Part shown: positions 51,202 to 55,445 of the stretch, piece after piece
Layout: the number at the start of each line of letters is the position of its first letter
Numbering within the stretch: position 1 is the first letter of the stretch
From: Armatimonadota bacterium
GTDB taxonomy: Bacteria; Sysuimicrobiota; Sysuimicrobiia; Sysuimicrobiales; Humicultoraceae
NCBI GenBank assembly: GCA_031459855.1
Contig: JAVKHP010000001.1
Coordinates: 1,765,906-1,825,841, forward strand
Direction of reading: 5' to 3'
DNA: 59,936 nucleotides
Notes under the pieces: generated by a model
Databases searched by the model: none
What the model was told of the DNA's origin: nothing
The model's input: the letters and a program-made list of their open reading frames with translations, nothing else
Made by a program: the position numbers and the translations under genes

Positions 51202-51230
51202 TTGATAACATACGTTAGCTGCGTTATCGT
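51202..51230 (+). promoter_or_regulatory. Sigma-70 promoter with embedded inverted repeat (RHH-DUF5678 gene)
   Basis: TTGATA (51202-51207), 17 nt, TATCGT (51225-51230). GATAAC (51204-51209) and GTTATC (51223-51228) form an inverted repeat across the promoter, a classic place for an autorepressor. The region is AT-rich relative to the window. It is the best -35/-10 pair I see in the window. Confidence 0.6.
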
Positions 51231-51303
51231 AGGAATCGTCGCGGGATGTCTGCGGGACAGTCACGCCGCTACCACGGCGGTGCGGCGGAAGAGGTGAGGG
51301 GCG

Positions 51304-51822
51304 ATGGCACGCGGCACGACGCTCTACCTGCGGGGACTCCCCGAGGTGCTGGTGCGGGAAGCGAAGGCCACGGCGGCGCGACGCGGGGTGACGCTGACGG
51401 CCCTGGTGGCCGAGGCGCTCCAGCAGGTGGTGGGCGTGACGGTCCCGCTACCCGGCCCGCGAAGGGCCGGCCGGGCGCGACCGCGGGCCACCGGGCGTCC
51501 CGGACCGACGCCCCGCAGTGCCGAGGTCAGGGAGGCCACGGCGGCCGGCACGGCGGCTACGGCGAGCGCGGCTCCCGACGCCGCAAAGCACCTGGCCGAG
51601 AGCATGCGCTGGTTCGAGGTGAACCGCGCGCGCCTGGTCCGGCGCTACCGCAACCAGTACGTGGCCATCGACCGCGGTCGGGTGATCGACCACGACCGTG
51701 ACTTCGACGCGCTGGCGCGCCGGGTGTTCGCGCGGCTGGGATCACGGCCGGTCTTCATGCCGAAGGTAACGGCCGAGGAGCGGGTAGTGTCCCTCCCTTC
51801 GCCCTGGCTGGTCCCAGGGTAG
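51304..51822 (+). CDS. RHH DNA-binding protein fused to a DUF5678-type domain
   Basis: This 172-residue protein has residues 1-43 as a ribbon-helix-helix like those of antitoxins (TTLYLRGLPEVLVREAKATA, RRGVTLTALVAEALQQVV). Residues 44-100 are a low-complexity Arg/Ala/Pro linker. Residues 100-172 match DUF5678 (WFEVNRARLVRRYRNQYVAI, DHDRDFDALARRVFARLG, MPKVTAEERVVSLPSPW). It starts at ATG 51304 after GAGGTGAGGGGCG. A palindrome-bearing promoter lies 75 nt upstream and a retropepsin-like gene follows, so a two-gene, autoregulated module is likely. Function unknown. Confidence 0.75.
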   Translation: MARGTTLYLRGLPEVLVREAKATAARRGVTLTALVAEALQQVVGVTVPLPGPRRAGRARPRATGRPGPTPRSAEVREATAAGTAATASAAPDAAKHLAESMRWFEVNRARLVRRYRNQYVAIDRGRVIDHDRDFDALARRVFARLGSRPVFMPKVTAEERVVSLPSPWLVPG

Positions 51823-51825
51823 CCG

Positions 51826-51896
51826 GTGCAGCGCCCTGGACGATGAACCGCCCGTCTGCGCCCTCGACGACCGCGCCCGGGCAGGTCCAGCCATAG
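51826..51896 (+). other. Two-step relay (6 + 17 codons), DUF5678 gene to retropepsin
   Basis: GTG 51826, 3 nt after the stop, runs 6 codons; its TGA overlaps ATG 51843. That frame runs 17 codons to TAG 51894-51896, 2 nt before GTG 51899. The words GGTCC..TAGCCG recur 74 bp apart. Confidence 0.38.
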
Positions 51897-51898
51897 CC

Positions 51899-52324
51899 GT
51901 GGTGGCGTCCTCCCGGCGATCCCGACGGCGCAGTCCCACGGTGCATGCCTTCCCCTACGATGCGCGACGCGACCCACCGGCCCCCGTGCTCCCGGTGCGC
52001 CTCGGACCGCCCCGCGCCGAGCCGGCGACCGCCGTGGCGGCGCTCGTGGACAGCGGCGCCGACGTCACCGTCCTCCCGGACGGCCTGCCCCAGGCGCTCC
52101 GCCTGCCTCAGGTGGGCGAGGTGACGGTACGTGGCGTGGCGGGGACGGCTCGTGTGCCGGTCTTCGCTGCGGAAGTGGAAGTGGCCGGTGGGCGACGGAT
52201 CGCTGAGGTGGTGGGAGTGGGCGGAGAGGTGCTCCTGGGGCGCGATCTGCTCAACCAGTGGGTCGTGACGCTCGACGGCCCCCGACGCTCGCTGCAGGTG
52301 GCGGTCGGGCTCGTGCGGGATTAG
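51899..52324 (+). CDS. Retropepsin-like aspartic protease (clan AA)
   Basis: This 141-residue protein has the catalytic motif ALVDSGADVTVLP (Asp51), which is the DTGA/DSGA loop of single-domain retropepsins that act as homodimers, and the later hydrophobic-hydrophobic-Gly GGEVLLGRDLLNQW. The N-terminus is basic (SSRRSRRRSPT) with no signal peptide, so it is cytoplasmic. It follows the RHH-DUF5678 gene. One reading is that it cleaves the DUF5678 partner or another regulator (inference). Confidence 0.8.
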   Translation: MVASSRRSRRRSPTVHAFPYDARRDPPAPVLPVRLGPPRAEPATAVAALVDSGADVTVLPDGLPQALRLPQVGEVTVRGVAGTARVPVFAAEVEVAGGRRIAEVVGVGGEVLLGRDLLNQWVVTLDGPRRSLQVAVGLVRD

Positions 52325-54746: not shown

Positions 54747-54813
54747 TAACATGCCTGATAGATCTTTCAGGAGCGCAACGGCGACGCGCGACAGGTAGAG
54801 AAGGGGACGAGTG

Positions 54814-55047
54814 ATGCCCAAGAGTCTGTCCATCAAGAACGTGCCAGATGAGATCGTGGCAAAGTTGCGCGCCCGCGCCCGCCGGTCTCATCGATCGCTT
54901 CAGGGCGAGCTGCTGGCGATCCTCGAGGAAGCTGTCCGACTCGAGCGCCTATCAGTCACGGAGTTGCGACGCCGCGTGGAGGCTCTCGGGTTGAGCGCGC
55001 CCGACGAATCCGCCCTGCTGGTGCGCGCCGATCGGGATGCTCATTGA
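54814..55047 (+). CDS. vapB: VapB/FitA-like antitoxin (RHH)
   Basis: This 77-residue protein has an N-terminal ribbon-helix-helix (KSLSIKNVPDEIVAKLRARA, HRSLQGELLAILEEAV) of the FitA type and a C-terminal tail that would occupy the toxin active site. ATG 54814 follows GAAGGGGACGAG. It overlaps the toxin start as TTGA. Codon use is less GC-rich than that of its neighbours, consistent with a mobile module. Confidence 0.88.
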   Translation: MPKSLSIKNVPDEIVAKLRARARRSHRSLQGELLAILEEAVRLERLSVTELRRRVEALGLSAPDESALLVRADRDAH

Positions 55048-55445
55048 AGCGTCCCCCGGCACTCGTCCTGGATACTTCCGCGTTGGCCGCGGTGGCGTTC
55101 GGAGAGCCGGCGGGTGGCCGACTAGCACTTCTTCTTGAGGGGGCACTGCTCCATGCGCCCACGCTGATGCCCTACGAGCTGGCCAGCGTGGCCTGGCGGA
55201 AAGCCGTCAGGAATCCCGCCGGTGCGGAGAGCATCCTGCGGGCACTCGATCTTGCGCTGAGTCTCGACGTGCACTGGGTCGAGATCAATCAGCGTGATGC
55301 AGTGCAGCTTGCTCTGGAGGAGGGCATTACCCCCTACGATGCTGCCTACCTCGTCACCGCCCTTGTCACGTCTGGCGCCCTTGTCACCCTTGACCAGCGG
55401 TTGACCACGGCTGCCAGAGCACGAGGCGTTCCCCTGTACCCCTGA
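55044..55445 (+). CDS. vapC: VapC-like PIN-domain toxin (ribonuclease)
   Basis: This 133-residue PIN domain starts at TTG 55044. The acidic active-site residues are Asp10 (VLDTSAL), Glu45 (PYELASV), Asp99 (TPYDAAYL) and Asp117 (TLDQRL). VapC toxins cleave tRNA or rRNA with Mg2+. All catalytic positions are intact. Confidence 0.9.
   Translation: MKRPPALVLDTSALAAVAFGEPAGGRLALLLEGALLHAPTLMPYELASVAWRKAVRNPAGAESILRALDLALSLDVHWVEINQRDAVQLALEEGITPYDAAYLVTALVTSGALVTLDQRLTTAARARGVPLYP

Follow-up and report, generated by a model that had tools for sequence, protein, structure and literature searches.

Type II toxin-antitoxin operons of the FitAB/VapBC kind place first a regulator with an RHH end and a partner-binding end, carry the operator over the promoter, and are compact, patchily distributed and able to move as units. 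The pair of genes described here, an RHH-DUF5678 regulator followed by a retropepsin, is alike in these features, its partner-binding end and operator being putative, but its second gene encodes an aspartic protease in place of a nuclease or another known toxin, the toxin and antitoxin roles are putative, and the pair was not found on plasmids or phages with the queries tried. The nearest layout among described systems is that of the COG2856 (ImmA-like) Zn-protease and its Xre repressor (PMC2701414), in which a repressor stands with a small cytoplasmic protease and is sometimes fused to it. That system differs in both protease class and DNA-binding fold, with an HEXXH Zn-protease and an Xre-type HTH repressor in ImmA-ImmR where we find a retropepsin and an RHH domain, and most relatives of the present pair have no DNA-binding domain at all. 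The paper describing COG2856/Xre mentions no aspartic or aspartyl protease (PMC2701414).

Retropepsins themselves have been described in bacteria. APRc of the outer membrane (PMC4140852), the secreted RloA, and RimB of the RimK system (PMC12239564) have the retropepsin fold and motifs in common with the protease examined here, but none of them is described with a DUF5678 or RHH partner. DUF5678 (PF18929) is a Pfam family without an assigned function, for which our literature search returned one plant paper and nothing else. A search for aspartic proteases in connection with toxin-antitoxin systems gave nothing relevant, a PADLOC defence-family search gave no match for the pair, and no description of a DUF5678-retropepsin pair was found among open-licence papers; since the literature search covered that body of work, the novelty of the pair is provisional. 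The pairing offers a testable function for DUF5678 and a probable partner for a group of bacterial retropepsins, in a system of two short genes that laboratory strains make easy to test.

Organization of the locus

The window, by which we mean the whole stretch of 59,936 nucleotides that was analysed, comes from a genome of about 3.19 Mb in the CSP1-3 lineage, whose relatives include 'Armatimonadetes bacterium CSP1-3'; Sysuimicrobiota is the name given to the CSP1-3 phylum (PMC11604079). The features of the locus are as follows.

51202-51230, + strand: sigma-70-like promoter, TTGATA (51202-51207), 17-base spacer, TATCGT (51225-51230); 1 found against 0.0 expected in shuffled sequences
51204-51228, + strand: putative operator, GATAAC (51204-51209), GTTAGC (51214-51219), GTTATC (51223-51228), from recurrence upstream of RHH copies
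51290-51299, + strand: ribosome-binding site AGAGGTGAGG, from sequence
51304-51822, + strand: regulator gene RHH-DUF5678, 172 aa, from ATG 51304 to the stop at 51822; sequence, profile match, conservation and purifying selection
51304-51432, + strand: RHH domain, aa 1-43, from the family profile against solved RHH antitoxin chains
51433-51594, + strand: linker, aa 44-97, low-complexity, rich in Ala, Gly, Pro and Arg, unconserved by conservation comparison
51595-51744, + strand: DUF5678 region, aa 98-147, PF18929 match
51745-51813, + strand: conserved C-terminal tail, aa 148-170, RPVFMPKVTAEERVVSLPSPWLV, from conservation and better order in a fused model
51899-52324, + strand: retropepsin gene, 141 aa from GTG 51899; PF00077, family profile, fold match and selection
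52049-52063, + strand: catalytic motif DSGAD, with Asp, Gly and Ala invariant in 14 relatives
52232-52255, + strand: second retropepsin motif LLGRDLLN, with Gly-Arg invariant in 14 relatives

The regulator scores 28.2 bits against DUF5678, above the curated Pfam cut-off of 23.2. Its RHH part alone gives a weak Pfam match to a FitA-like RHH (E=0.012, below the cut-off), and the profile of the regulator family matches solved CopG/antitoxin RHH chains with E=1e-4 to 2e-4; by this comparison the domain resembles the RHH of antitoxins. The downstream gene, whose start is uncertain (GTG 51899, 51902 or 51941), is identified as a retropepsin by motif, profile and predicted fold. It scores 27.3 bits against RVP (PF00077; cut-off 20.7), as expected of a retropepsin (clan AA, A2-like), and DSGAD and LLGRD supply the two retropepsin signatures, D-S/T-G-A and two hydrophobic residues followed by Gly. 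The profile of its family matches HIV-1 protease (E=8e-9) and Ddi1 (E about 1e-8), and the predicted model of a homologue (L013) matches the HIV-1 protease fold with a TM of 0.73 by target length and APRc (5c9f) with a TM of 0.69. Purifying selection acts on both genes (pN/pS 0.08-0.37).

Upstream of the regulator, the palindrome GATAAC...GTTATC (51204-51228), which encloses a third half-site at 51214, covers both promoter hexamers, an arrangement of operator over promoter that, on sequence evidence, is that of type II toxin-antitoxin operons. The half-site GTTAKC recurs at least once within 110 bases upstream of the start at 16 of the 17 RHH-form loci whose upstream region was read, and at least twice at 11 of the 17, where about 0.01-0.1 per locus would be expected; the spacing is regular at 8-10 bp. 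The loci with half-sites include one from another phylum (L091), and none were found upstream of L164 or of the Chloroflexota loci L093 and L094. The tandem form GTTAKCN{2,4}GTTAKC occurs a single time in the window genome (about 3.2 Mb), at the regulator promoter. Such an upstream region is what one expects of an autoregulated RHH operon. A preliminary description of this locus had proposed a palindrome-bearing promoter, an RHH protein fused to DUF5678, a single-domain aspartic protease and an autoregulatory layout; the profile matches, the predicted fold and the putative operator conserved over the promoter bear it out on all four.

Pairing and mobility within CSP1-3

The RHH-DUF5678 gene is present in 18 of 43 CSP1-3 genomes, and the protease adjoins it in every one. 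Profiles of either gene strongly match the same 18 of the 43 genomes searched, with regulator and protease always adjacent, and the profile search found no orphan protease of this retropepsin type among the 43. The order is regulator first, and many relatives have stop/start junctions of the form GTGA, ATGA or TGATG, the kind found in coupled genes. The window departs from this, since about 77 nt separate the regulator stop from GTG 51899, and overlapping genes were therefore rejected there. In a nineteenth genome (G017; L166, 2050-2620) a single deletion has removed the catalytic motif and left the beginning of DUF5678 fused to the latter half of the protease. Just upstream of that fusion, the sequence looks like the last part of a PIN-domain gene.

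The presence of the pair is patchy within genera. In the window's clade, identity of the pair is about 50-93% across genomes without common flanking genes nearby, and the proteases of G011 (family f2) and G001 (family f1) share 88% identity. Because the surroundings in the window's clade are unrelated and so similar a protease is found across families, the pair moves as a unit, with the horizontal mobility of type II toxin-antitoxin operons. In six other f2 genomes the flanks of the pair are shared. Unlike many toxin-antitoxin systems, the pair gave no plasmid or phage match for the queries tried, and carriage as plasmid or phage cargo was rejected on that basis.

DUF5678 and retropepsin beyond the phylum

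DUF5678 is present in 35 of 389 sampled genomes. Matches at L137 (within a large transporter-like frame), L141 and L147 were discarded, and L116 ends at a contig edge. Outside CSP1-3, 33 loci were informative. A same-strand retropepsin follows DUF5678 directly, or is fused to it, at 24 of them; another 3 have remnants minus the catalytic core and 6 have no retropepsin. DUF5678 with a retropepsin is a conserved unit across many bacterial lineages. Most DUF5678 proteins outside CSP1-3 are short and have no RHH, and in cyanobacteria a single protein of about 205-215 residues usually carries both DUF5678 and the retropepsin. Fusion to an RHH is a particular form of DUF5678, seen in CSP1-3 and on one Deltaproteobacterial contig (L091), with unconfirmed RHH-like starts in Chloroflexota (L093, L094). 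From the RHH-less relatives and the fusions we conclude that the core module is DUF5678 plus retropepsin, to which the RHH adds a DNA-binding part.

These neighbourhoods, examined as the preliminary description had suggested, uphold its view of a self-contained unit, with adjacency in 18 of 18 CSP1-3 genomes that have either gene and at 24 of 33 loci outside, shared mobility and cyanobacterial fusion. A lack of conserved neighbours in other genomes, which would have counted against that view, is thus not what the genomes show. They uphold equally its likening of the locus to a toxin-antitoxin operon, given a mobile, regulator-first pair with a putative operator over its promoter. The relay that it saw between the genes holds for many relatives, where they overlap, and is not seen in the window itself.

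A few loci depart from the usual arrangement. At L140, one of the 6 without a retropepsin, the DUF5678 protein has an extra C-terminal helix-like stretch and a Fic/Doc gene lies immediately downstream; with Fic/Doc in the retropepsin's place, effectors of more than one kind may serve as partners of DUF5678. At L121, downstream of position 2681, a DUF433/DUF5615 pair that is toxin-antitoxin-like comes after an orphan DUF5678 gene, and at L128 (2203-3584) two consecutive DUF5678 genes precede one retropepsin.

Proposed function

We give about an even chance to the reading that the two genes form a self-regulated protease module working like a type II toxin-antitoxin operon, with DUF5678 as the likely inhibitor. 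The product of gene 1 would be an RHH repressor, and its C-terminal half, made up of DUF5678 and the tail, would be the dedicated partner, and most likely the inhibitor, of the gene 2 retropepsin. The RHH domain would bind the GTTAKC half-sites over the promoter and repress the operon, probably more strongly when the regulator is complexed with the protease. Should the level of the gene 1 protein drop, or the protein be displaced, the cytoplasmic retropepsin would be freed to cut cellular proteins. The likeness to type II systems would follow from DUF5678 acting as inhibitor or regulatory partner and from the RHH adding autorepression. Sequence comparison shows the pairing, the operator sequence, the retropepsin motifs and the conservation of the tail; the fold and the contact of tail with protease are predictions, and inhibition, repression and harm from the free protease are inferred.

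More tentatively, and with the balance somewhat against it, DUF5678-retropepsin may constitute a new toxin-antitoxin or defence class across several bacterial lineages, with an HIV-protease-like toxin and a DUF5678 antitoxin, of which the cyanobacterial fusion would be a self-inhibited, trigger-released protease. If the protease is toxic when free, this would be a type II toxin class acting by aspartic proteolysis, for which HIV-protease inhibitors are ready probes.

The linker and the C-terminal tail

The preliminary description had suggested that the protease cuts the low-complexity linker between RHH and DUF5678. This finds no support in our comparison. The linker is the single unconserved part of the regulator, with a mean top-residue frequency of 0.16 against 0.64-0.74 elsewhere, its length ranges from 16 to 59 residues, and outside the phylum the majority of partners lack the RHH domain and with it any such linker. 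The C-terminal tail, on the other hand, is conserved and hydrophobic, and DUF5678 is conserved likewise.

In homologue L013 regulator and protease are separated by a single in-frame TAG, which we read as Gly to model both as one chain with AlphaFold. This fused chain was predicted with pLDDT 88 and pTM 0.74, and the tail (residues 121-130) formed a short strand with pLDDT 82. The regulator alone, modelled from the regulator rows only, gave pTM 0.53 and a tail with pLDDT 67 and no strand; the pTM comparison is confounded, since pTM also depends on chain length. The model suggests that the tail binds the protease. With the linker unconserved, and the tail both conserved and predicted to be better ordered with the protease, cleavage of the linker is unlikely, and the tail is the better candidate if the partner is bound or cut.

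A cut at the tail would suit a different reading, in which the locus is a derepression switch like ImmA-ImmR and the promoter is released once the retropepsin has cut its partner RHH-DUF5678, perhaps within the conserved tail. The COG2856/Xre systems set a repressor beside a protease in the same way (PMC2701414), and a conserved hydrophobic tail is what a retropepsin substrate might present. We nevertheless regard such a switch as unlikely. Outside the phylum the majority of relatives lack a DNA-binding domain that a cut could inactivate, the linker shows no conservation, and the cyanobacterial partner and protease share a single chain.

Loss of the protease and survival of its partner

Searching with DUF5678 in cyanobacteria gave 39 matches, 14 of them without an intact protease (including the weak L229, L231 and L232 and the partial L188). 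Because such a search favours intact DUF5678, we also searched cyanobacteria with the protease, and all 23 strong matches of this type have DUF5678 in front, one of the 23 (G605) being truncated at its start; the protease has a stop or frameshift in 3 of the 23 (G597, G518, G523). In the phylum of G080, represented in the protease-first search by just 2 genomes and so too thinly to be informative, an extra protease (L199) has a divergent DUF5678-like gene in front (E=0.09). Outside cyanobacteria, DUF5678 is kept beside a protease minus its core at L113, L149 and L146. The core is lost in frame at L173, and at L176 the catalytic Asp is changed to Asn. Two Litorilinea aerophila contigs can be compared directly: relative to L093, L092 lacks 307 bp, from the stop codon of DUF5678 to a point within the protease gene.

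A protease unseen without its partner, and a partner that survives alone, make up the pattern of a toxin and its antitoxin in these sequences. The asymmetry is partly expected because DUF5678 stands first in gene order, a polarity that remains a caveat, and several of the cases are related genomes.

The same pattern bears on the possibility that DUF5678 is an adaptor or maturation partner, which folds or activates the protease or feeds it substrates in ordinary regulated proteolysis without toxicity. Obligate pairing and fusion would be natural for such a partner, as would the housekeeping or stress roles of known bacterial retropepsins (PMC12239564, PMC4140852), and the cyanobacterial fusion fits an adaptor or prodomain as well as it fits the toxin-antitoxin-like reading. 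An adaptor, however, should not persist once the protease core is lost, as DUF5678 does in several lineages. This role, which we consider improbable, is also hard to square with a presence that varies within genera and with exchange from family to family. That an RHH regulator and an unrelated protease merely happen to adjoin, as the 77 nt gap in the window might by itself allow, is refuted to the point of negligible probability by pairing in 18 of 18 CSP1-3 genomes with either gene, by pairing at 24 of 33 loci outside the phylum and by the cyanobacterial fusion.

Other genes in the window and its genome

At 54811-55445 of the window, 2.5 kb downstream of the pair, lies a VapBC-like toxin-antitoxin pair, with a gene for a FitA-like RHH antitoxin (E=6e-13) and, after it, one for a PIN-domain protein (E=5.5e-12). 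The window's genome also contains further retropepsins of another type that are unpaired with DUF5678, among them a second, different retropepsin-like gene at 1405-1797 of L085 (G000:C1:737807), which has no adjoining DUF5678.
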